DNA from: a virus
DNA length: 22,397 bases
IMG/VR virus record: IMGVR_UViG_3300042327_000981
Coordinates: 1-22,397 of that record
Direction: 5' to 3' (one strand)
Shown: positions 1,588 through 15,431 of the stretch, piece by piece
Numbering within the stretch: the first letter of the stretch is position 1
Layout of the letters: each line of letters begins with the position of its first letter
Position numbers and translations under genes: made by a program
The notes under the pieces: generated by a model
Seen by the model: only the letters and a program-made list of their open reading frames with translations
What the model was told of the DNA's origin: nothing
Database searches by the model: none

Positions 1588-3234
1588 TCACCAGCCGTAG
1601 CCAGTACCGACGCTGGCCGATTTGACCAAGTTCGCAACGGCGTTCGGGTCGAGAATATTTGTCCCGGTCGTGCCCTCTTCGTAGTAGACCCCGACGTTGT
1701 TCGACGGGGAGTTGATGTTGCCGAACAGTCGCGAATTGATCGCGTTGTTCGTGTAGATCCCGTTCGAGCCCGCGAGGATGTTGTCCTCGATGATCGTGCC
1801 TGCTCCGCGGAAGAATGGCCGCGCGCCGCCTGCGATGTGGTTGCCTCGGAAGACATTTCGGAAGTGCGCGTAAGCCTTCGCGAGGTAGGAGACATTGACC
1901 CAGGGCGTTCCGAGGCCGTAGACGTCGGACCAGATCGGCCCGTACGTGCTCGCGGTGTTGGCCTTGTGCTGCCGGATGGTGTTCCCGACGAACGAGTTGA
2001 AGCCGGACCAACTTGCGGCCTTCCAAGCGCCAGAGCTGCCGAGCGTGTCGTCGACCACGCTGTTGCACGAGAGCGGGGGCAGCATCGTCGTCACGGTGTT
2101 GTTCGCGACGACGTTGTGCCAGCACGCCCCGTAGAGTCGGATGCCCCACGAGGAGTCGGTCGCGCTCTGAACGGTGTTGCCAGTAATCGAGTTGTTGATG
2201 AACGGCAGCGTGATCTGCAGCTTAGTCCCGGCCGTGATCATCGCCGCATCGAATCCACCCGAGCGACTGACGCCGATCGTATTCGACGTCGAGGCCTCGA
2301 TCTCGGCGCATGTACCGGCCGCGCTGCCCGACAGCACGATCAGCATGTAGCCATTGCACCAGTTACTCGCTCCGGTCGTCTCCGAGATTGTGATCGTGCA
2401 GCGCGCGCCGCTGGTGTCTGCTGCGCTGGCCACTGTCGCGACAGGTAGTGTGCCGTTCTCGGGCCACTGGGCGGGCTCGTTGCCAGTCGAATCGAGCGAG
2501 ATGGATTCCTCGCTCGCGTTGTAGACCGCGTTACCCGTAATCGTATTGCCAGAGCAAATTGTCGGGTGCTGCGCCCGCTGCGACAGCGCGCCGATGCCGA
2601 TGACGTTGTTCGTGCATTTGTTGTTAGCGATGATCGAATCGCGATACCCGAAGCCGAAGACCCCGTACGTCGGACCGTCTACCATGCACCCGACAACCGA
2701 GGCCCGAATCGTGCCGCGCAGCAGAATTCCAGCGTACGGCGTCCCTGCAGTGCGGAAAACCTTTGTTCGCGACACGTAAGGATCGGTCGCCCCCGCTTCG
2801 ATTGACACGCCAATCGACGAGCTGCCGCTAATTCGAACCGTCGCGTTTTCCACTCGCGCAAACGCGCTGCCCGCACTAATTCGCACGGCGTGTCCAGTGA
2901 ATCCACCGGCAGACTCGAACACCGTCGGCCCGTCAAGGACTGAGCCCGACCCGAGCGCGACGCCGAAGTCGGCGCCCGCGGCGACTTTGAGCGATCCGGG
3001 GCCGTACAGCATGCGCCCCGGGGGAATCGTGAGATTGCTCACGAGCCAGATGAATCCCGGCGGCAGGTACACGTCGCCGGTCGAAAGCGCAACTGCGATC
3101 GCGCTTGTGACGTTGGTCACGCCACTCCCGTCGAAACCGACGAATTCGAACGTCAGTTCACCCGTGACGGTGCCGACGCCGTTGAAACTCGGGCTCGTGA
3201 CGGTTCCGGTTCCGGTGATCGAGACAGTGGTCAT
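1588..3234 (-). CDS. Pectate-lyase-like beta-helix tail protein (second spike), 548 aa
   Basis: ATG at 3234 with a GGAG ribosome binding site about nine bases upstream. After a Thr/Gly/Val-rich lead (residues 1-30), residues 33-66 contain FDGSGVTNVTSAIAVAL and VYLPPGFIWLVS, the usual opening of the Pectate_lyase_3 fold seen in phage tailspikes. The rest to about residue 500 is repeated short beta rungs with N/G-rich turns (IIANNKCTNN, TICSGNTITGNAVYN, SITGNTVQSA, VVANNTVTTM, IIEDNILAGSNGIYTNN), typical of a right-handed parallel beta-helix. Such proteins are usually trimeric depolymerases or receptor-binding spikes. No catalytic residues can be assigned by eye. The C-terminus ends YGW without an obvious chaperone domain. 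It lies between the adaptor gene and two small unknowns, in tail territory. Confidence 0.85.
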   Translation of the reverse strand: MTTVSITGTGTVTSPSFNGVGTVTGELTFEFVGFDGSGVTNVTSAIAVALSTGDVYLPPGFIWLVSNLTIPPGRMLYGPGSLKVAAGADFGVALGSGSVLDGPTVFESAGGFTGHAVRISAGSAFARVENATVRISGSSSIGVSIEAGATDPYVSRTKVFRTAGTPYAGILLRGTIRASVVGCMVDGPTYGVFGFGYRDSIIANNKCTNNVIGIGALSQRAQHPTICSGNTITGNAVYNASEESISLDSTGNEPAQWPENGTLPVATVASAADTSGARCTITISETTGASNWCNGYMLIVLSGSAAGTCAEIEASTSNTIGVSRSGGFDAAMITAGTKLQITLPFINNSITGNTVQSATDSSWGIRLYGACWHNVVANNTVTTMLPPLSCNSVVDDTLGSSGAWKAASWSGFNSFVGNTIRQHKANTASTYGPIWSDVYGLGTPWVNVSYLAKAYAHFRNVFRGNHIAGGARPFFRGAGTIIEDNILAGSNGIYTNNAINSRLFGNINSPSNNVGVYYEEGTTGTNILDPNAVANLVKSASVGTGYGW

Positions 3235-3262: not shown

Positions 3263-3862
3263 TCAGTTGCTGTTACGCACGGCCAGATTGCCGCCGCTGT
3301 ATCGCTTGCGCCGGGAGGCGATGACCGTCTCCATCGCGAGCTCCTTCATTCGGCTGTCCCAGACGGCATGCGTGTCGTAGTTCTTCATGTGCAGCATCAC
3401 CTCCGACATCGTCGCCGCCAGGTACAGGTCGGGGTGCTCATCGAGCACGGGGTTCGTGTCGCTGTCTGCCGCCAAGGCCTCGAGCTTCATGCTGTAGAGC
3501 ATGGCGACGATGAGCGGGCTGCTCGCCGCCGGCGCCGGGTAGACCCGCAGCGACGAATCCTCGACCGTGAAGATGGGCGTGCCGATCGACGGGCTGCCGC
3601 TGACGATGGCCTGGAACTGCTGCGGCGGCCGGAAGTCGAGCTTCTTACCCCCCGAAGACAGCGACCGCATTCCGTTGAAGTTGGCTGGGAGCTCGGTGTA
3701 CTCGCTGACCAGCGTCGCGTCCGCGATGCCTTCCTGCTCGTAGATCCTCAGCACACGCGTCAGCCGCGCAGTCGCTGCCGCCACGGCGTCGACGATCGTC
3801 GTGCCCTGGTCGGGCCGATCGAGGCGGGACGCGATGATCGTCCGAAGCTCGCCGTAGTTCAT
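3263..3862 (-). CDS. Head-tail adaptor-like protein, 199 aa
   Basis: I chose the ATG at 3862 because it overlaps the stop of the methyltransferase gene (ATGA) and starts the sequence MNYGELRTIIASRLDRPD, a typical phage adaptor N-terminus; the open frame extends further upstream but that part is a shadow. The protein has an N-terminal helical pair (residues 1-45), a middle beta region (YTELPANFNGMRSL, LDFRPPQQFQAI, PIFTVEDSSLRVYPAP) and a C-terminal helical region (HPDLYLAATMSEVMLHMKNY). This pattern matches the SU10-like/DUF6682 head-tail adaptors that sit under the portal and join the tail to it. Usual members are about 180-230 residues. It has been separated from the capsid gene by the glycan cassette. 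Confidence 0.7.
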   Translation of the reverse strand: MNYGELRTIIASRLDRPDQGTTIVDAVAAATARLTRVLRIYEQEGIADATLVSEYTELPANFNGMRSLSSGGKKLDFRPPQQFQAIVSGSPSIGTPIFTVEDSSLRVYPAPAASSPLIVAMLYSMKLEALAADSDTNPVLDEHPDLYLAATMSEVMLHMKNYDTHAVWDSRMKELAMETVIASRRKRYSGGNLAVRNSN

Positions 3863-4398
3863 GGGGTGCCTTCCTGTTGGCGGGACTGGCCGATGAACAC
3901 GAATCCCGGGCCGATCTTCTTGGCTTCGAGCAGCTCCCACCGCGTCAGCAGCGCCGGCAGCCACCACGAGGCGGGCTGCTGCGTCAGGTGGGCGTTGCGG
4001 CCGTCGGACAGCACCTTCTTCGCCGGGCCGGTGTGCACCGTGAGGAAGACGAAAGCGCGGGCGAGCCGCTGCAGGTCGTCGAGCACGTTCGTCAGCAGCT
4101 CGGGCTCGATGTGCTCGAGCACGTCGATGCAGGTCACGAGTTCCGCCGGCTCCGGCGGCATGCTGATCGCGGGCACGGCCGGGTCGTAGAGCTCGATCTC
4201 GACCGTGCGCCTGGGCGGCCGGGTCTTCATGCCCTGCAGCAGGTTGCCGCGGCCGGCGCCGTAGTCGAGCACCGTGTCGACCTCGAGCGAGTCGATCAGG
4301 TTGGAGACGATCGGGGCGAACTGCAGCGAGGCGACCCCGTACTCGGTCGTCTCGTGCAGGCGGCGCTGCTCGGCGCGGTAGGCCTCGGAGATCAGCAT
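3859..4398 (-). CDS. Class I SAM-dependent methyltransferase, 179 aa
   Basis: The start is the ATG at 4398, seven bases inside the end of the upstream glycosyltransferase gene. Motif I is VLDYGAGRGNLL (residues 43-54), the glycine-rich SAM-binding loop. An acidic residue follows at the end of strand 2 (LYDPAVP, D72), and motif IV/post-motif is CIDVLEHIEP (90-99). These are the marks of a small Methyltransf_23-type Rossmann enzyme. The acceptor is unknown; its location after two glycosyltransferases suggests a sugar or another small-molecule acceptor rather than DNA, and no DNA methylase motif (DPPY/NPPY) is present. The length is short for the class, so it may lack a substrate-binding cap. 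It completes a three-gene coupled cassette. Confidence 0.85.
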   Translation of the reverse strand: MLISEAYRAEQRRLHETTEYGVASLQFAPIVSNLIDSLEVDTVLDYGAGRGNLLQGMKTRPPRRTVEIELYDPAVPAISMPPEPAELVTCIDVLEHIEPELLTNVLDDLQRLARAFVFLTVHTGPAKKVLSDGRNAHLTQQPASWWLPALLTRWELLEAKKIGPGFVFIGQSRQQEGTP

Positions 4399-5087
4399 GG
4401 GGCGAGGCCTTGTTCGCAGTGGATGGCGCGCCGGTAGGCCCGGTGCCAGGGCTCGGCGCTCTCGCAGTTCGCGTACTCGCGGAAGCACGGCGAACCCACG
4501 GTGAAGTGGAGGATCGCCGCGTCGTCGTCGCGCTCCTGCTCGAGCACCAGGTGGTTCCAGGTCGCCGGCAGCGTGCCGATCTCGTCGGCGTCCAGCCACT
4601 GGAAGCGGTGCAGGAACGAGCCCGGACGCCGCGCGACCTCGGCCGGCGTCAGCCACGCGTTCGACGGGTGCGAGCAGTTCCACAGCACCAGCGACGACCA
4701 GTTCTTGCGCGGGTAGTCCGGGTTCGGCGAGCCGAGGTACTTCACCGGGTGCTTCGTGCGGTACTCGTGCGGCACGACCATGACGGCGTACCGGTCGTCA
4801 GCCAGCGCGGCGAGCTCGGCAATGTCGTTGTTGCACACCATGTCGCCGTCGGCGAACACGGCCCATCCCTCGTGGTCCTGCAGGTGCGGCACCAAGAAGC
4901 GCGAGTACGTGAACGCGTTGCTGCCGTCGTGCGGCAGCTCGCGACGCATCATCCGGCCGACCGCGTTGGCGGCCAGCGGCACGAACGCCACCGGCACCGA
5001 GGATCGCTCGAGCACCGACTGGCAGAAGACGTGGTAGGCCACCGCCTCGCGCTGGTCGAAGCCGACGTAGATCGTCAGCGGCTTCAC
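4392..5087 (-). CDS. GT-A type glycosyltransferase with DXD motif (GT8-like), 231 aa
   Basis: Starts with GTG at 5087, overlapping the stop of the TPR-glycosyltransferase gene (GTGA). The N-terminus TIYVGFDQREAVAYHVFCQS is the nucleotide-sugar binding start of GT-A enzymes. YSRFLVPHL (residues 61-69) is followed by AVFADGDMVCNNDI (76-89), where D80-G81-D82 is the metal-binding DXD. H194 in ILHFTVGSP is a good candidate for the C-terminal metal ligand. These match GT8-like enzymes often found in phages and in cell-wall gene clusters. The donor and acceptor cannot be read from the sequence. It is probably soluble: no membrane segment is visible. Confidence 0.82.
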   Translation of the reverse strand: MKPLTIYVGFDQREAVAYHVFCQSVLERSSVPVAFVPLAANAVGRMMRRELPHDGSNAFTYSRFLVPHLQDHEGWAVFADGDMVCNNDIAELAALADDRYAVMVVPHEYRTKHPVKYLGSPNPDYPRKNWSSLVLWNCSHPSNAWLTPAEVARRPGSFLHRFQWLDADEIGTLPATWNHLVLEQERDDDAAILHFTVGSPCFREYANCESAEPWHRAYRRAIHCEQGLAPC

Positions 5088-6463
5088 GCGCTCGCCTCCG
5101 GGCGCCAGTCATCGGAGAAGCGCCGCACGCACTTCGCCCACGACTCGCCGTGGCGCTGGCGGAAGAGCCGCACCGACGGATACCAGGGCAGCGCGTCGCC
5201 CAGGCCCGCGCCGTAGTTCCAGGTCGGCCGCTCCGGCACGAACGCGACCGTCGGCACGCCCATGGCGCCCGCGGCGTGGTGGGCAGAGGTGTGCACCCCG
5301 ACGACGACGTCCAGGGCGGCCAGGAAGCCCGCGGTGTGGTCGTAGTCCGCCCCAAGCCCGACCGCCCAGTGAAAGTGGTGGATCGGCAGGCCGGCGGCCT
5401 TGATGCGCTCGGCTGCGTCCGGCCGGTAGTCGAGCGAGAAGAACTCGCACGCCTCGCCGTGGCGCTCGATCAGCGCTGCGAACGCCTCCGGACCCATCGC
5501 GCGCTTCTTCAGGCCCGTGCGCTGCTGGCCGCCGTGCATGCACAGCCCAACGCGGATCTTGCCGCCGGCGTGGCGTCGCTGCAGCGCCCCGTACATCTCG
5601 CGCAGGTCGGGGCTGGGCGTGATGAACGCGAGGCGCGGGAACGACTCGGCCGAGCGGCGGAAGAACCGCGGCAGCTCGCCGGTCATGATCTGGTGCGTCC
5701 AGCCGCCCTCGGCCGCCCACGCCTTCGGGCCGCGGCGCGTCCCATGGACGGTCACCCGATCGGAGAACGAGCGGCGGAACAGCTTCGAGAGCCGCGCGTC
5801 GCAGTCGATCGCCACCGCATCCACCCGCGCGAGCAGGTCCGGGATGCACGAGGCGAACTGGATCTCGTCGCCAATGCCCTGCTCGCCGCAGACGATCACC
5901 CGCGCGCCCGCCTCGCCGGTCCACTCGGGCAGGCCGTAGTCCTGGATGCCGCGGTACTTGCCGCCCAGGGCGTAGCGCCAGTCGTCCCAGCCACCCGCCC
6001 AGTCCGCCTGCGCCAGCCGGGCGAAGCCGCGGCAGGTGTGCGCGCCGCCGTGCTCGGGATCCAGCGCCAGCGCCTTCTCCGCCCACTGGATCGCGCGCGC
6101 ATGGTCGGCCTCGAGCAGGTAGGTCATGCCCACGTTGCTCGGGTAGTTCGCGTGCGTCGGGTGGATCTTGTGCGCGCGCATGAAGTGCTCGCGGGCCTCG
6201 ACGCCGTGGCCCAGGCCCTCGAGCGCCATGCCGACGTTGTTCAGCACCTGGTGCTGGTTCGGGCGCAGCTCGGCGGCGCGCCGGAAGCACAGCCACGCGG
6301 GCGTGAATTGTTCGGCCTTCGCGTAGACGTTGCCGAGCATGAACAGCGCCTCGGCGTCGTCGCGCTCGTCGCGCAGCAGGTCGTTCAGGACCGCGAAGGC
6401 CTGTTCCTCGTCGCCCGACTCGATCAGGCGCGCAGCGTAGAGGTGACGGTCAGATGCGCCCAA
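5084..6463 (-). CDS. TPR-repeat glycosyltransferase-like protein, 459 aa
   Basis: ATG at 6463, 14 bases inside the upstream gene. Residues 1 to about 140 form four to five tetratricopeptide repeats (for example AEALFMLGNVYAKAEQFTPA, HQVLNNVGMALEGLGHGVEA, ANYPSNVGMTYLLEADHARA), which normally bind proteins. The C-terminal half is a GT-B glycosyltransferase-like domain: VCGEQGIGDEIQFASCIPDL at 191-210 resembles the start of the catalytic half of ADP-heptose/OGT-like enzymes, and DVVVGVHTSAHHAAGAMGVP at 385-404 is the conserved donor-side signature. The TPR-plus-GT architecture recalls O-GlcNAc-transferase-like (GT41/GT9) proteins, which glycosylate proteins. In this context the target could be a virion protein; that is inference. 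Confidence 0.82.
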   Translation of the reverse strand: MGASDRHLYAARLIESGDEEQAFAVLNDLLRDERDDAEALFMLGNVYAKAEQFTPAWLCFRRAAELRPNQHQVLNNVGMALEGLGHGVEAREHFMRAHKIHPTHANYPSNVGMTYLLEADHARAIQWAEKALALDPEHGGAHTCRGFARLAQADWAGGWDDWRYALGGKYRGIQDYGLPEWTGEAGARVIVCGEQGIGDEIQFASCIPDLLARVDAVAIDCDARLSKLFRRSFSDRVTVHGTRRGPKAWAAEGGWTHQIMTGELPRFFRRSAESFPRLAFITPSPDLREMYGALQRRHAGGKIRVGLCMHGGQQRTGLKKRAMGPEAFAALIERHGEACEFFSLDYRPDAAERIKAAGLPIHHFHWAVGLGADYDHTAGFLAALDVVVGVHTSAHHAAGAMGVPTVAFVPERPTWNYGAGLGDALPWYPSVRLFRQRHGESWAKCVRRFSDDWRPEASA

Positions 6464-6776
6464 GGCTCGTCCGCAGGTGCCGCCAGTCGGGGTCGCGGAG
6501 CTTGCGCTTGACGGCCTCGATGTGGTCGGGGTTGAAGACGTCGATCCCCTCCTGACGCCACCGCATGACGATGATGTCGGGGATGTGCGCGAAGTGCTGC
6601 CAGTCGGCCTTGATGCCGGCGGCCTTGTACTCCGGCGCGTTCTGCAGCAGCTTGTTCTTCTCGAGCAGCGACTGGACGTCCTGCGTGTGGTGCACGCGGA
6701 ACTTGCGCTCGCTCTCGACGGCTTCGAACCAGGTCGAGACGCCGGTCAGCGGGTCGTGGTCGATCAGTTCCTTCAC
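6450..6776 (-). CDS. Conserved phage protein of unknown function, 108 aa
   Basis: GTG start at 6776 with an AGGAG ribosome binding site seven bases upstream. The protein opens with KELIDHDPLTGVSTWFEAV, then a helical, basic middle, and ends with WQHFAHIPDIIVMRWRQEGI and a C-terminal KRKLRDPDWRHLRTSLGRI. I recognise this pattern (a DP.TG..W start, an 'IP...' helix in the middle and a 'DPDWR.LRT..G' end) as a small protein common directly after the major capsid gene in podoviruses and marine phages, function unknown. It could take part in head assembly. It is separated from the capsid gene by a 50-base gap with a hairpin. Confidence 0.75.
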   Translation of the reverse strand: MKELIDHDPLTGVSTWFEAVESERKFRVHHTQDVQSLLEKNKLLQNAPEYKAAGIKADWQHFAHIPDIIVMRWRQEGIDVFNPDHIEAVKRKLRDPDWRHLRTSLGRI

Positions 6777-6826: not shown

Positions 6827-7813
6827 TCAGACCGAGAACAGATCCGAGACCTTGGCGTGGGCGTCGGGGTTGCCGACCACCAAGCAGAACTCGCCGCGGA
6901 GCATCTTCTTCTCGGCGTCGCCGGTCTTCGCCAGATCCTTGAGCTGGATCGGACGCAGCCACGCGCACTCGAGGTACTCCGGATCGAGCGTCAGCAGCGT
7001 GCGCTGGCGCTGATGCCGGTTCAGCACGATCTTGTGCTCGCCGAAATCGCTGATGTACATGTCGACGCCGGCCACGAGCACGCCCTGCTGGGTGCGCCCG
7101 CCCTCGATGTAGTTGCCCGCGAACTTGCTCGAGCCGCTGAACGTGGCGATGGTCTTCTTCTGGTACGTGTTGACCATGATCACGCTGTCGTCGCCGCCGT
7201 CGACCCAGGCCGCCTCGAGCGCGGACTTCAGGTAGTCCTCGGTCAGCGTCGAGCCGGCGCCGGTGGCGGTGCCGTCGGTCGGCGCGGCCCAGACGCCAGC
7301 CGCGAACCCCGGCGTGGTGCCGGTGCCCGAGGTGGTCGGCAGGATCCGGTTGCCGGCGATCATCGACTCGATGCCGGCCGAGGAACGCGCGGTCGACGAG
7401 CCGCCGGCGGACGAGGCCTGGTTGCCGTTCAGCGCGATCTCGATGTCGCGCTTGAGCTCCTTGCCGAACTTCACGGTCAGGCGGGCCAGCTCGGTGTCGC
7501 GGCCGTACTTGCGCACGGCGTCGGCGGTCTCGGAGACGAGCACCGTCTTGCGGCTGATCTGCGTGTAGTTCGCCAGCATCGTGGTCGGCGCGGCCGTCAC
7601 GAACGCGGCGTCGTCGCCCTCGATGTGCCGGTTGGTCGCCGCGGCGGCCAGCGCCTCGGTCTGCCACTGGTGCAGGGTGTTTTCGGCCTTGCCCTTCTTG
7701 CACATCGTGAAGAGCGGGGTCTCGGTCGGCGTGATGTTGTAGATCACGTCCTCGACGTCTTCGGCGATGCCGACCAGGTCGTAGGTATCGGTGGTGCCGG
7801 TGACTTGTGCCAT
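6827..7813 (-). CDS. Major capsid protein, SU10-like (DUF5309), 328 aa
   Basis: ATG at 7813 with an AGAGG ribosome binding site eight bases upstream, overlapping the stop of the scaffold gene. The N-terminus has TYDLVGIAEDVEDVIYNITP, then TETPLFTMCKKGKAENTLHQWQTEAL in the next 26 residues; this 'DV.Y.I.P.ETP....' and 'H.WQTD.L' pattern is the signature of the DUF5309/SU10 major capsid family, which has the HK97 fold. Later segments (KELKRDIEIALNGNQAS, VWAAPTDGTATG, VIMVNTYQKKTIATFSGSS, GVDMYISDFGEHKIVLNRHQ, LLTLDPEYLECAWLRPIQ) fit its P- and A-domain strands. The length of 328 is usual. It builds the procapsid on the scaffold encoded just upstream. Confidence 0.92.
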   Translation of the reverse strand: MAQVTGTTDTYDLVGIAEDVEDVIYNITPTETPLFTMCKKGKAENTLHQWQTEALAAAATNRHIEGDDAAFVTAAPTTMLANYTQISRKTVLVSETADAVRKYGRDTELARLTVKFGKELKRDIEIALNGNQASSAGGSSTARSSAGIESMIAGNRILPTTSGTGTTPGFAAGVWAAPTDGTATGAGSTLTEDYLKSALEAAWVDGGDDSVIMVNTYQKKTIATFSGSSKFAGNYIEGGRTQQGVLVAGVDMYISDFGEHKIVLNRHQRQRTLLTLDPEYLECAWLRPIQLKDLAKTGDAEKKMLRGEFCLVVGNPDAHAKVSDLFSV

Positions 7814-9237: not shown

Positions 9238-9788
9238 ATCAGCAGCTCCAAGGCAAGGAATGCGTCCATGTCGTCCTCTTCGATCTCGGCGTCGCGGCGG
9301 GCGGCCTCTTGGAGCGCACGCTCCATCAGCGCCTGCGCCTCGGCCTGAGCGGCTTCCTGCTCGCGAATGAGCGCGGTCGCAAAGGCCCGCAGGTACTCGG
9401 CACGCAGGTCGCGCTGAGCGATCGGCGCAGGGTCGATGCCCGCGAGCTGCTGCGTAGGCGGCAGGCCGACGTCTATGACCTGCAGCGCGGCGTCAAAGCG
9501 GCCGGCGGCCTTGCGTGCGCGGCGCTTCGTCTCGCGGCTGGTCTGCGCGACCGGCTCGGGCTGGGGTGCGCGACGCGCCTCCTTGGCGGCGTCCTCGGCG
9601 GCCCGACGCGCCACCAGGTCGGCGATCTCTGCGTACGGGCCGACGTAGGTGCGCCCTTCGATGCGGATTGCCACGCGAGGGCCGCGTCTGCTGCCGCCAC
9701 CGGGGGCGCCGACGGGCTGCTGCGCCGTCTCGATCGCGCCCCAGGACGCCCCCCAGGCTGCACCCCACGACTTGCCCCATGCGCTCAT
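9234..9788 (-). CDS. Trp-Gly-repeat phage protein with coiled-coil C-terminus, 184 aa
   Basis: I chose the ATG at 9788, which overlaps the stop of the fibre gene as TGATG; the open frame extends far upstream but there it lies on top of the fibre gene. The N-terminus has three W-G units in a row (WGKSWGAAWGASWGAIE), then a Gly/Pro hinge, then a small beta element (VAIRIEGRTYVGPYAEI). The remainder is Ala/Glu-rich helix (RREAQAL-type composition; DLRAEYLRAFATALIREQEA, EAQALMERALQEAARRDAEI) ending in an acidic tail. Small proteins with repeated WG near the head genes are common in phages; their function is unknown. The acidic helical tail could bind the portal or scaffold. Confidence 0.75.
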   Translation of the reverse strand: MSAWGKSWGAAWGASWGAIETAQQPVGAPGGGSRRGPRVAIRIEGRTYVGPYAEIADLVARRAAEDAAKEARRAPQPEPVAQTSRETKRRARKAAGRFDAALQVIDVGLPPTQQLAGIDPAPIAQRDLRAEYLRAFATALIREQEAAQAEAQALMERALQEAARRDAEIEEDDMDAFLALELLI

Positions 9789-12700
9789 CACGCCGCCGGA
9801 CCCCACGGATCGGCCTCGACGCCCGTGCCGACCACCTCGATGCCCTTGACGTAGCGCACGTCGGCTGCGATCGGCTCTGCGGCTGCGATGGCTGCGGCTG
9901 CTGCGGCTTGGACTTCGGCGGCATCGGGCACGGCTGCGATGGCGGTCTGCGTGGCGTCGTGCTCGGCCTGCGCGGTGACGGCGCGAGCCGCGGCTGCGGA
10001 CTCGGCTTCGCGCGTGCTGACGGCCACGTCCAGCCGCGACTGGATCAGCGCGTCGAGCGCAGCCAGCGTGGACGCCTGGGCGAGCTGCACCTCGGCGCCG
10101 TAGAACAGGCTCACGATGCCGTTGTTGCCGAAGTTGATCCGCTGAGTCGCGGGCAGGGTCCGCATCAGGACTGTGCCACCCGCGTCCTCGCGCCGGAAGT
10201 AGGCCTCGACGTCGAAGTTCGCACCAACGGTGAACGTCTTCTCGCCGCCGCCCGTGAACGAGTAGAGCACCACGTTGTCGCTCACGCGAATGACGCGCGT
10301 GACGTCGGTCGGGTTCGGCCCTTGGAGCGTGATTGTCGCGTCGCCCACGACCCACAGGCTCGGGTTGACGTCGGTCGGCAGGCTGATCTGATTGAGCTTG
10401 GTGTACGGGTTGGTCTGCCCGGCGGTGACGCGCAGGCGCATCTCCAGCCCCGTGCCGCCCGCCGCGTAGCCAGTCAGCGCCGCGAACGCGCTCGCGAGGT
10501 TTGCGCCTGTGAGCGCCGCGTAGGCGGGCCACGCGGTGCCGGGCACGCGCATGGCGAACTCGGTCACTGTGACCGAGCCCATTGTCTCGGTGCCCGCCAG
10601 CAGGCGAGCCCGGCCGTAGGCGTAGGCGACGCCCGGCTCGGTGCCGCCCGTGAGCGCGGCGCCGTTGACCGAAACGATGAGGCCGAGCCCCGCGTAGATG
10701 CCCGTCCCGGTGATCGTGTAGCCGCCGCCGATGCTCGTGCCGCTGACAGTGGCGTTGCCGGTGCCGACGACCGCGATGACCGCGGCGAGCGCGGTGGCCG
10801 CCGCCGCGTTGAACGCGAGCGCGCTGGTCGTGCCCAGCACCGTGCCGGCCGCGTTCGCGATCGTGAGGGTGAACGTCCCGCCCGTCGGCACACCGGGCGC
10901 CTGCGCGATGTTGACGTTCGCTGCGGCGCCCGGTGCATCGACGTACAGATACGGCGCAACGCTCTGGAAGCCCGTGATCCCGTGCATCGCGAACGGCATC
11001 GTGATCACCGCCGTGTCCCCGGCCTCGGGCAGCAGGAACGCGCCCAGCGCGTCGGTGTAGGCCGCGCCGGTCAGTTCCAGCGAGGCGCCCGCACCGAAGG
11101 GGCCGAACGTCACATGCCCGGTCGTCGGAGTCAGGCTGGGGTCGGTGTAGTTCCCGCCGACCCAGTCGTTCACGCCCGAGAAAGTCTCGGTGATGCCAGC
11201 GATCGTGCTCGACACCATGTCGTACTGGCCGCCCTGGCACGCGTCGAGGCCCGCCGCAAGTTGCGCGGTCGCGAACGTCGCGAACAGCTTGCGCGCGATG
11301 AGGTTGTTCGCGAGGAAGGTCGAAGGTAGGTCGATGAGCGGGCCGCTGCGCACGTTCGCCAGCGAGACGTTGGCGATCTCCAGCCCGCCGCAAGCCATCG
11401 ACAGCATGGCTGCGGTGTTGTTCGTGCCGTCGCTCACGCCGCCCAGCACCTTGAGGTTGGACGACGCCGCGTCGGTGGCGATGATGTAGCTCCGCGCGCT
11501 GCCGGGGCCGGCGTCTGCGTATCCCGCGAAGGTGCAGCCGGTGCAGTTCGTCGTCAGGACGGCGTTCATCGCGTTCGCGGAGCTTTGCGTGTTCAGGGTC
11601 GTGTCGGCGTACTGGTAGCCCGCGATCGTGCATCCGGTCAGGTTGGTGAACGACAACGAGGCGCCGATGCCGACGAGGTTCGTCAGCTTCAGCCCGGCCG
11701 GGATCGTCAGCACCTGCAACGTGCGGTTGCCGGTGGTGCTTCGCGTCCCGTAGAACGTGGTGGTCACGCGGTCGAGCGCGGTGAGCGCAGGGGCGACGTT
11801 GAGGTTGAAGCCCAGCGGGTTCTTCGCCCCGGTGACGACGCGCTTCATGCTGACCGGGCCGAACACCGACGCGATCTGCGAGGCCGAGACGCTGGCGAAC
11901 GGGGTCCGGCTATGCGCGAACCCGTCCAGTTCGACGCCGCCGTTGCTGCTGTTCGCCTGCCACGCATCGCCGCCGATGCCGACGTTCACCAGCCGGATGG
12001 ACTTGAACTGGTCGGTGACCATTCGGAACTTGTCCGAGATGCTGCACCACTCGCAGTCCATAGTGCCCAGCGGCGACAGGTCGATGGCCGACAGGTTGGC
12101 GGGGGCGTTCTCGAAAACGATCGCCTGCGGGTTCGTGCCGCCGGTCAGCGAGTTGTTCGCGATGCGCGTGCCCAGCCGCTCGTTGGCGTAGGCGCCGGCC
12201 CATGTCACCGACACTGAGGTAGGAATCGGGCCACCGCCGGGCGTCACGGTGCCGACGCCGGTCACCGCCTCGATCGCCGTGTCGATCTGCGCGCTCGTCG
12301 CGTTGAACGGGATCGCCGCGGTCGTGCCCAGCACGGTGCCATTCTCGCGGCTGATCTCGATGGTGAACGTGCCGCCGGTCGGCGTGCCCTGCGTGGAGAC
12401 GGATAGAACCCGAGTCTGGTTCGTCAGCAGCCGGTTGCTGATGAAGATGTTTGGGATGCGGACCGCGCAGCCCGCCGGCACCGCGCGCCCGTTGGTGTTG
12501 TCGCCGCAGCGCAGGGTGCGGTTGGTCTCGTGCCAGAACAGCGCCTGCCCGGCGACGGTGTTTCCCGCACTGAACGCGGTCGGGTCCGCGCCGCCGACGG
12601 TCGTGTTCGCCCCGACGTTAAGGTTGAACTTCGGGTCTTCTTGGACGACAAGCCACGGCATGAACACGCCGCTGCCCGCGCTCTCCTCGACCTCGACGTA

Positions 12701-13039
12701 GGTCATCGTCTTGATGACGCCGCCGAACAGCGCGGTGAAGTCCCACGTCTGCGCCGCCCCCGTGCCGGCCGCGAGCGACATCGGAGCGCCACGGATCTCC
12801 AGCACACCCCCTGCCTCGAACCGCAGGTCGTGGTCCATGTCGTGCAAGTCGAAGATCAGAGGCACCGTGGTGCTGCTGTTCTCGATCCGCAGCTTGCCGG
12901 ACGTGATGCACTGGATCGTGCCGGGGCGTGTCGCAGGCGTGGCGCTCACGGTCAGCGTCGCGCCGTTGCGGATCTCGATGATCTCGGCCTGCGCGTAGCT
13001 GACGCCGGTGAGGTTGGTGCTGCTGGTGACGATAGCCAT
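9788..13039 (-). CDS. Large fibre-like virion protein, 1083 aa
   Basis: ATG at 13039, overlapping the TGA of the 56-aa gene. Residues 1-30 form a short N-terminal module that is repeated in the 33-aa ORF upstream. Residues 218-312 and 716-808 are two copies of one domain (GTPTGGTFTIEISRENGTVL against GVPTGGTFTLTIANAAGTVL), of the 'GGTFTL...G' type I know from many phage structural proteins. The rest up to about 980 is Ser/Thr/Asn/Gly-rich beta-like sequence. The C-terminus is an Ala-rich coiled coil (990-1055) followed by YVKGIEVVGTGVEADPWGP, a frequent C-terminal end in phage fibres and appendages. It is therefore likely an extended adhesin. No enzymatic motif is visible. Confidence 0.8.
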   Translation of the reverse strand: MAIVTSSTNLTGVSYAQAEIIEIRNGATLTVSATPATRPGTIQCITSGKLRIENSSTTVPLIFDLHDMDHDLRFEAGGVLEIRGAPMSLAAGTGAAQTWDFTALFGGVIKTMTYVEVEESAGSGVFMPWLVVQEDPKFNLNVGANTTVGGADPTAFSAGNTVAGQALFWHETNRTLRCGDNTNGRAVPAGCAVRIPNIFISNRLLTNQTRVLSVSTQGTPTGGTFTIEISRENGTVLGTTAAIPFNATSAQIDTAIEAVTGVGTVTPGGGPIPTSVSVTWAGAYANERLGTRIANNSLTGGTNPQAIVFENAPANLSAIDLSPLGTMDCEWCSISDKFRMVTDQFKSIRLVNVGIGGDAWQANSSNGGVELDGFAHSRTPFASVSASQIASVFGPVSMKRVVTGAKNPLGFNLNVAPALTALDRVTTTFYGTRSTTGNRTLQVLTIPAGLKLTNLVGIGASLSFTNLTGCTIAGYQYADTTLNTQSSANAMNAVLTTNCTGCTFAGYADAGPGSARSYIIATDAASSNLKVLGGVSDGTNNTAAMLSMACGGLEIANVSLANVRSGPLIDLPSTFLANNLIARKLFATFATAQLAAGLDACQGGQYDMVSSTIAGITETFSGVNDWVGGNYTDPSLTPTTGHVTFGPFGAGASLELTGAAYTDALGAFLLPEAGDTAVITMPFAMHGITGFQSVAPYLYVDAPGAAANVNIAQAPGVPTGGTFTLTIANAAGTVLGTTSALAFNAAAATALAAVIAVVGTGNATVSGTSIGGGYTITGTGIYAGLGLIVSVNGAALTGGTEPGVAYAYGRARLLAGTETMGSVTVTEFAMRVPGTAWPAYAALTGANLASAFAALTGYAAGGTGLEMRLRVTAGQTNPYTKLNQISLPTDVNPSLWVVGDATITLQGPNPTDVTRVIRVSDNVVLYSFTGGGEKTFTVGANFDVEAYFRREDAGGTVLMRTLPATQRINFGNNGIVSLFYGAEVQLAQASTLAALDALIQSRLDVAVSTREAESAAAARAVTAQAEHDATQTAIAAVPDAAEVQAAAAAAIAAAEPIAADVRYVKGIEVVGTGVEADPWGPAA
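10616..10894 (-). repeat. Second copy of a ~93-residue domain in the fibre gene
   Basis: Encodes residues 716-808. It aligns with residues 218-310 (12110-12388) from the PTGGTFT start through GTVLGTT and FNA motifs to an 'LTGGT.P' end. Some DNA words are still shared, such as GTGCTGGGCACGAC on the coding strand. Confidence 0.75.
12110..12388 (-). repeat. First copy of a ~93-residue domain in the fibre gene
   Basis: Encodes residues 218-310, with the same PTGGTFT, GTVLGTT and SLTGGTNPQ landmarks as the copy at 10616-10894. Probably an Ig-like beta domain; the fold is inferred. Confidence 0.75.
12953..12997 (-). repeat. 45-nt direct repeat, copy in the start of the fibre gene
   Basis: Codons 15-29 of the fibre gene. 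It matches 13228-13272 at 43 of 45 bases by hand alignment, while codons 1-14 of the two ORFs match mainly at protein level. Confidence 0.85.
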
Positions 13040-13352: not shown

Positions 13353-15431
13353 TTAAGCTTGCCAGGTGACCGATCCACCGACGAGCACGTACGCGCCGCC
13401 CGACCACATGAACTCGACGATGAGCCGCTGATTGGCGGTGCCTGCCGCAGTCGTTCCGAGCGCCGTCCCGGTCGCGCCGACGAACTGCGAGCCGAACGCA
13501 AGGGTGAAGCCCCCCGTGGCGTTCTGCTGCGCGATGACGGCGACCCGCTTGCCGATGGCCGCGCTGTTCCACGGCGGGTTGACGATGATCGTGTTGCCGG
13601 TGAGCGTCAGCGTCAGCGTATCGACGACGTTGAGCTCTTCCGTCACGTTGCCCGTGACGTTGCCTTTCGCACGCAGATAGCCGCTGTTCGTCGGCCGCTG
13701 CATGCAGAAGAAGCAGTTGTCCTGCGGCGACGGGGAAACCCCCTGCCAGAAGAACTGCGCGGTGACCGACTCGCCCGCCGAGTTCGTCCAGGCGACGTTC
13801 TCCCAGCGCAGCACCGGCCCGTTGAAGTTGCGGAACGACACAAGCGGCACGCGCGGCGTGCCCGACGGCAGCAGTCCGTCGAGATGCAGCACCGCGCCGT
13901 TGCCGTTGCCGATCTCGAACGCAGGCCCGGACAGCTTGTCGCCGTTCTCAAGCTTGCCGTTGCGCCACGTCTGCTTCGCATTCCCGGTTGCGCCCGACTG
14001 CGCGCCGAGCAGGAACAGCCGCTGGCACGACTCAGGGTAGTAACCGTCCACCGTCAGCGTGCCGTGCGCCAGGCCGTCGGACGCGACGAGGTGCCGCAGG
14101 TGGCTCGCCAGGATGTTGCGGATGACCGTGTTGTCGGCATTCAGCCGCGCGCCGTTGCCGCCAACGCCAGCCGGTTGCAGTGGGTAGAACGGGGAGTTGG
14201 TCTTGCCGATGGAGAGGAACGCGCCCATCGTCGGCACCGTGCTGCGCGCGCCACCCGTCGCGGCGTTGTGCGACATGGTGACCTGAGTCGGGCTGTCGAT
14301 AGACCGAATGACCGCATGATCCGGCATGCACGCTGCAACTGAGGCGCTGGCGTCGTTCAGCGACATGCCGCGTCGCAGGTTGGTCGTGTCGCTCATGGTC
14401 ACGAGCGGTGATGCGTTGGTGAACGTCATCGTGCGCGCCGACAGTTGGCACATCGGGTACGGCGACTCGAAGGTCGTTCCGTCCACGTTGTAGCCGAACT
14501 CGACGCAGAACATGCAGTAGTTCCACCAGCAGTCGCGGAACGTCTGCGTGGTGCAGTCGTTCAGCGCCACCGCCGAGAAGTAGTCGACCCACGAGCACTG
14601 CGAGAACCCGGCGTTGAAGAACACATGCTGGTTCGCGGCATCGCCACCGCCGAGCTGCACCGCGCGCTGGTTGACGAACACCTGCACGAGGTTGCCCGAC
14701 GTCGCGGCGAAGTTCGTAATCGTCGGCTGATCGGCGAACGTGACCGTGATCGGGCTGGTGCCGGCGACGCTGGTGACCGTCGCCCAGTGCGGCGCAGGGC
14801 TCACCATCGACGCATAGGCGTCCGCGCTGATGCAGATGGCATCGCCGACCGAAACGGCAGTGCCGGCAGGTAGCGTGCAGCTCGTCGCCCCTGCGCTGAT
14901 GCCAGCAGACAGCCCGCGAACGTCGCGCACGACAACGCCCGGCCCGGCCCACTTGATCTTCTCGAACCGCAGGTGCGTGGTCTGCGGCGTGCCGTCGTTC
15001 GTGAACAGCCAGTCGGCACCGCTGCGTGCAACCGTCGAGATGAACGTCGTCGCGCCCTCGCTGCGGAAGGTCGGCCACCGCCCCTCCGGCGTCGACAGCA
15101 TCGAGAACGCTTCATTCGCCGGGGGGCCGCGCCACAGGATCGGCGGCACGTAGTAGAAGTCGCCGCCCGGGAACACGACCTCCAGCTTGCCCCCGCTTGC
15201 AGCAATCCGGTCGGCGACGTTCTGCAGCAGCACGGTATTCGCGGCGGCATGGGCCGACCCGGTCTGCAGGCCCTTGACGATCACGGCCGGCGACACGAGC
15301 CCCGGATCGACCACCACCCCGTGACCGCGCTGCACGATGTCGCGCTCGATCTGCTGCGACAGGTTCAGCACCTGCCCGATGGTGTAAGCCCCGTGCGAGA
15401 GCGTCACTGACTGCGTGATGCGGACCGTCAT
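13353..15431 (-). CDS. Beta-helix tailspike-like protein with fused N-terminal module, 692 aa
   Basis: ATG at 15431, overlapping the portal stop (ATGA). Residues 1-45 (VTLSHGAYTIGQVLNLSQQI, ending RGHGVVVDPG) resemble a small stand-alone phage protein and probably anchor the spike. Residues 60-160 (LEVVFPGGDFYYVPP, TFRSEGATTF) enter a beta-helix, with N/G turns to about 550. Two small beta insertions are visible: GLSAGISAGATSCTLPAGTA from 173, and a 'SPLVTMSDTTNLRRGMSL' segment from 341. The C-terminal part (TIIVNPPWNSAAIGKRV, FTLAFGSQFVG, GTANQRLIVEFMWSGGAYVL) is like the C-terminal knob of phage fibres. Twelve cysteines are present, with a dense group at 293-309. Probably a receptor-binding or depolymerase spike; catalytic residues are not identified. 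Confidence 0.82.
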   Translation of the reverse strand: MTVRITQSVTLSHGAYTIGQVLNLSQQIERDIVQRGHGVVVDPGLVSPAVIVKGLQTGSAHAAANTVLLQNVADRIAASGGKLEVVFPGGDFYYVPPILWRGPPANEAFSMLSTPEGRWPTFRSEGATTFISTVARSGADWLFTNDGTPQTTHLRFEKIKWAGPGVVVRDVRGLSAGISAGATSCTLPAGTAVSVGDAICISADAYASMVSPAPHWATVTSVAGTSPITVTFADQPTITNFAATSGNLVQVFVNQRAVQLGGGDAANQHVFFNAGFSQCSWVDYFSAVALNDCTTQTFRDCWWNYCMFCVEFGYNVDGTTFESPYPMCQLSARTMTFTNASPLVTMSDTTNLRRGMSLNDASASVAACMPDHAVIRSIDSPTQVTMSHNAATGGARSTVPTMGAFLSIGKTNSPFYPLQPAGVGGNGARLNADNTVIRNILASHLRHLVASDGLAHGTLTVDGYYPESCQRLFLLGAQSGATGNAKQTWRNGKLENGDKLSGPAFEIGNGNGAVLHLDGLLPSGTPRVPLVSFRNFNGPVLRWENVAWTNSAGESVTAQFFWQGVSPSPQDNCFFCMQRPTNSGYLRAKGNVTGNVTEELNVVDTLTLTLTGNTIIVNPPWNSAAIGKRVAVIAQQNATGGFTLAFGSQFVGATGTALGTTAAGTANQRLIVEFMWSGGAYVLVGGSVTWQA

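Follow-up and report, generated by a model that had tools for sequence, protein, structure and literature searches.

Three genes between the capsid and adaptor genes of an uncultured SU10-type phage probably form a cassette for O-glycosylation of virion proteins

The DNA analysed here (the window), a fragment of 22.4 kb from the IMG/VR record of an uncultured virus, has a G+C content of 64-73%, and no close DNA relative of it was found among named phages. The minus strand carries all of its recognised genes, arranged in the series TerS, TerL, portal, two large unknown proteins, scaffold, major capsid protein (MCP), a 108-aa gene, the cassette studied here, adaptor, a 548-aa protein and a further virion protein. 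The two large proteins between portal and scaffold (9788-13039, 1083 aa; 13353-15431, 692 aa) gave very weak family matches or none, and are rare in relatives. The MCP, encoded at 6827-7813, is of the SU10 type (PF17236, E = 3e-88; phrog_1328) and is followed by the small 108-aa gene (6450-6776; phrog_3982), which is found in cassette-negative relatives too. The cassette consists of genes for a 459-aa TPR-glycosyltransferase (TPR-GT; 5084-6463, probably from a TTG start), a 231-aa GT8-like glycosyltransferase (4392-5087) and a 179-aa class I SAM-dependent methyltransferase (MT; 3859-4398), and the next gene encodes the SU10-type head-tail adaptor (3263-3862; PF24175, E = 6e-21). The TPR-GT and GT8 genes overlap by 4 bases, the GT8 and MT genes by 7, and the MT stop shares 4 bases (ATGA) with the start of the adaptor gene, whose ATG is at 3862, so the cassette is expected to be transcribed, and probably also translated, together with the adaptor. 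The initial annotation had described three tightly coupled genes between capsid and adaptor; this location stands, with small corrections to the starts of the MT (4398) and adaptor (3862) genes. Spurious ORFs were ruled out, as the proteins are conserved in dozens of divergent relatives.

In the TPR-GT, the apparent core enzyme of the cassette, TPRs were located by Pfam at about residues 7-155, which makes this half of the protein certain. The glycosyltransferase half of the window protein had no Pfam match, and its assignment comes from 9 of 46 relatives that match Glyco_transf_9 and from an AlphaFold model (mean pLDDT 94.9) in which N-terminal TPRs are joined to a C-terminal GT-B domain, the architecture of FlmG. 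The best solved structures found for this model by Foldseek were SPINDLY and O-GlcNAc transferase (OGT), which likewise combine TPRs with GT-B and act on a protein acceptor. The phage family differs from them in that its glycosyltransferase half resembles GT9 enzymes in sequence in those nine members, and with whole-model TM-scores as low as 0.3-0.4 we claim a shared architecture, not GT41 membership.

The second enzyme has a GT-A fold, with WbbM, LARGE1, LgtC and GlyE as nearest structures, and its DGD motif (D80 and D82) and C-terminal H194 are invariant in 51 sequences, as expected of a GT8 enzyme. The window protein scores 19.8 bits against Glyco_transf_8 (PF01501; curated cut-off, 24.3), and 39 of the 51 members match that family at E values up to 0.01. 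The 179-aa protein passes the Methyltransf_23 cut-off (35.4 bits versus 27) and contains motif I, with D45, G47 and a DGRNAH block invariant; its target is presumably a sugar, given its co-occurrence with glycosyltransferases. The three identities originally proposed from the sequence (a TPR-glycosyltransferase-like protein, a DXD glycosyltransferase and a small SAM methyltransferase) therefore hold, and the catalytic signatures, whose loss in relatives had been named as a refutation, are kept across 46-51 divergent relatives.

Viral contigs were then scanned with each protein alone, which yielded 40 loci for GT8, only 2 for the TPR-GT (identical contigs) and 548 stretches for the MT, the best 80 of which were kept, and gene order was mapped with profile HMMs made from the scan-derived sequences. 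Among the 78 loci from these best 80 of 548 stretches, the TPR-GT lies upstream in 57/57 with enough upstream sequence and the adaptor downstream in 60/60 with enough downstream sequence, so that the synteny of the three genes, suggested earlier as a check, is lineage-wide, and an arrangement due to chance or peculiar to this contig was ruled out. All 54 complete intervals from the same set read MCP-small ORF-TPR-GT-(GT/MT)-adaptor, in three orders only: TPRGT-GT8-MT (28), TPRGT-MT-GT8 (19) and TPRGT-MT (7). In a subgroup without GT8 in the interval, the gene is found upstream of the portal instead, indicating that the enzyme is retained though its position shifts. Scans with single MCP queries yielded intervals both with and without the cassette, and wherever a complete interval held any cassette gene the TPR-GT was present (45/45), compared to 19 intervals with GT8 and 32 with MT; the TPR-GT thus looks like the core, and GT8 and MT like elaborations. 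In Sinorhizobium phage phiM5, a cassette-negative relative, the MCP-adaptor slot is occupied by an SGNH hydrolase (L122:7728-9038) recorded in the particle proteome, which suggests that different virion-related genes can occupy this position.

To follow the history of the cassette, 75 non-redundant MCPs were placed in a tree from which loop columns had been left out. The presence of the cassette maps to one change on this tree (support 93), and TPR-GT distances correlate with MCP distances at r = 0.91 (bootstrap 0.87-0.95), compared to 0.93 for portal, 0.89 for scaffold, 0.75 for adaptor and 0.63 for MT. As far as these sequence comparisons go, the TPR-GT behaves as a head-module gene inherited vertically, and GT8 and MT appear to have been swapped more often. 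A glycosyltransferase that is co-inherited with head genes is what virion glycosylation predicts. We had also considered the co-divergence of MCP and TPR-GT (r about 0.9) as proof that the MCP is the acceptor, an argument that was withdrawn as portal and scaffold correlate equally well.

Within the MCP, a candidate glycosylation site was sought in a Thr-rich loop (about residues 160-191; 7241-7336) that follows the predicted spine-helix region and contains a TTPG motif (7307-7318). The loop has 42 residues in cassette-positive MCPs versus 33 in cassette-negative ones, and 15.0 versus 8.6 Ser+Thr, a difference owing to Thr and without enrichment in the remainder of the protein. The motif columns are conserved in cassette-positive MCPs (T166, 44/48; T167, 42/48; P168, 38/48; G169, 37/48), whereas MCPs without the cassette have other residues at most of these positions. 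The accessible text of the SU10 capsid paper gives domains, and a residue range for this loop was not found there. We do not treat the loop as statistically independent evidence, as loop and cassette change together on one single branch. Nevertheless, the TTPG loop is suggestive and makes the MCP the leading acceptor candidate. The initial annotation had named capsid or fibre proteins, with Ser/Thr-rich fibre and spike as good targets; a virion protein is indeed best supported, but the MCP loop is preferred over the fibre. Glycosylation of a different virion acceptor, such as a fibre, spike, beta-helix-like or other tail protein, is unlikely in our estimate: the 548-aa (1588-3234) and 1083-aa (9788-13039) proteins are Thr/Ser-rich too, but the 548-, 692- and 1083-aa proteins occur in just 1-4 of 120 loci while the TPR-GT is lineage-wide, and the conserved neighbours of the cassette are MCP and adaptor, not fibre genes.

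To place the cassette among cellular genes, the MT alignment was compared with genomes, giving 184 relatives, and the 80 of these that were retrieved belong mostly to Beta- and Alphaproteobacteria. Among these 80 of 184 loci, phage head genes were found at L193 and L206 only, so most cellular MT relatives appear to be chromosomal. Their clusters often hold GT8 and TPR-GT relatives too, and in some a flagellin gene lies within the cluster, as in Tepidimonas (L184, in the order MT-GT8-TPRGT-flagellin) and Comamonadaceae (L153, L173 and L181), or a flagellin-like gene, as in Dongia (L194) and L207; at most cellular homologue loci, no flagellin was present in the 10 kb examined. Of 12 genomes with a match, 5, one of them from Caulobacteraceae, have Flagellin_N and TPR-GT profile hits about 5 kb or less apart. 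Homologues at flagellin genes, a hallmark of FlmG-type enzymes, are thus found among the cellular relatives, and in phages the neighbour is the MCP. Phage and bacterial MTs are intermixed in a poorly resolved tree. Betaproteobacteria or Alphaproteobacteria are the likely hosts of cassette-bearing phages. Several chromosomal clusters (L147:219-4696, L148:13327-20517 and L166:4087-6848, among other genome loci) contain several TPR-GT paralogues with GT8 and MT, and the L166 cluster adjoins a pilin-like gene, not flagellin, suggesting that the TPR-GT/GT8/MT set serves several surface proteins.

These cellular neighbourhoods bear on two further explanations. During infection, the enzymes might instead change the glycosylation of host LPS, capsule or flagellin, which would block superinfection or hide a receptor; serotype-changing phage glycosyltransferases are known (accessible text of PMC12619734), cellular relatives adjoin flagellin genes, and a flagellin-type TPR domain could bind the flagellin of the host. 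We hold this to be rather improbable, since the position of the cassette between MCP and adaptor is constant throughout the capsid clade, the TPR-GT shows the inheritance pattern of a head gene, and genes overlapping the adaptor are presumably expressed late, when surface exclusion would be of little use. Hypermodification of phage DNA, with the sugar placed on a modified base, is a frequent role of phage glycosyltransferases (accessible text of PMC12619734), but the TPR plus GT-B architecture matches protein O-glycosyltransferases, flagellin-locus genes are among the cellular relatives, and none of the window genes that were searched could be recognised as a base-modification gene, which leaves this explanation with very little probability.

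Members of the cassette families were also found in phages with other capsids. In MW202512, which has a phrog_334 capsid, a TPR protein, an MT and a GT8 lie between MCP and adaptor; Tetraselmis viridis virus S20 has an MT, together with other glycosyltransferases, between MCP and head closure; in Roseobacter phage CRP-9, an MT follows the coat gene. In Caulobacter phages CcrColossus and CcrBL9, GT8 and MT follow the tail genes together with sialyltransferase-like genes, and CcrColossus has a GT9 too. This repeated occurrence in virion operons of unrelated capsids favours a virion target. The Caulobacter phage genes form a tail-to-endolysin block (CcrColossus, L125:12620-17173; CcrBL9, L126:12715-17204) with a sialyltransferase-like protein, a GT8-family enzyme and an MT, and the phiCbK genomics paper makes no mention of a glycosyl- or sialyltransferase. 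The S20 block (L127:6455-12038), in which a methyltransferase is accompanied by sialyltransferase-like genes, a GT-D-fold enzyme and one more glycosyltransferase, is probably a further locus for glycosylation of virions, in a capsid lineage other than that of the window. The MT was present in 20 named-phage records, and at the sensitivity used none of these came from a cultured phage that combines an SU10-type MCP with the set.

Taken together, it is quite probable that the three genes are a protein O-glycosylation cassette, kin to bacterial flagellin-locus genes, which a large lineage of phages with SU10-type capsids uses on its own virion. Glycosylation and sugar O-methylation of a virion protein, as first put forward, remains the best-supported reading, and gains from the constant place of the genes in the head operon throughout a capsid clade, from the co-divergence of the TPR-GT with MCP, portal and scaffold, and from cellular relatives at flagellin loci, for which FlmG is a precedent. 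According to this proposal, the enzymes would be made alongside the head proteins from a single overlapping operon, and the TPR domain of the TPR-GT would dock a freshly synthesised virion protein, most likely at the Thr-rich loop of the MCP, much as that of FlmG does on flagellin. The GT-B domain would then move a nucleotide sugar, presumably supplied by the host, onto Ser/Thr, the GT8-like enzyme would attach a second sugar, and the MT would O-methylate the glycan. The NAD-dependent epimerase family, associated with nucleotide sugars, was not found on the sister contig. A bolder version, which we offer tentatively and regard as somewhat doubtful, is that an ancestral SU10-type phage acquired a flagellin-type O-glycosylation module, which is now fixed and apparently indispensable for head biogenesis in a large uncultured lineage, with TPR-GT, MCP and TTPG loop evolving as one unit and capsids carrying methylated glycans.

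If confirmed, virion glycosylation, known from a few mycobacteriophages, would be an invariable feature of a large lineage of uncultured phages, and phages would be using a chemistry that bacteria apply to flagella. The three-gene set is recognisable, the TTPG loop of the MCP is a concrete acceptor candidate, and the TPR domain could show how acceptor specificity arises. No description of the TPR-GT/GT8/MT set was found in the searchable literature, outside which most subscription papers fall.

The closest functional parallel is FlmG of Caulobacter, which binds flagellins through its TPR domain and is needed for their O-glycosylation (PMC7591256). Both proteins have N-terminal TPRs and a C-terminal GT-B domain; FlmG itself was compared by its description, and in a Caulobacteraceae genome a gene located 2-3 kb from a flagellin cluster is matched by the alignment profile built for the phage family. 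The phage TPR-GT differs in its shorter TPR region, its location in a head operon and its association with extra GT8 and MT genes, and the pseudaminic acid donor of FlmG is not implied for the phage cassette. Among phages, glycosylation of virions by phage enzymes is known in mycobacteriophages (accessible text of PMC12363180 and PMC12619734), where glycosyltransferases such as Che8 gp110 and Corndog gp38 modify capsid and tail-tube proteins (accessible text of PMC12363180). The likeness, drawn from that description, lies in phage-encoded glycosyltransferases acting on virion proteins; these are actinobacteriophages, however, and the accessible text of PMC12363180 describes no TPR-GT/GT8/MT set between MCP and adaptor. 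CcrColossus (gp126-131) and CcrBL9 share with the window the same MT and GT8 families inside virion operons, and S20 shares the MT family. On the other hand, all three belong to other capsid lineages, carry extra sialyltransferase-like genes and gave no detectable TPR-GT of the window's family, and their blocks are placed differently, after the tail genes in the Caulobacter phages and from MCP to head closure in S20, whereas that of the window extends from MCP to adaptor.
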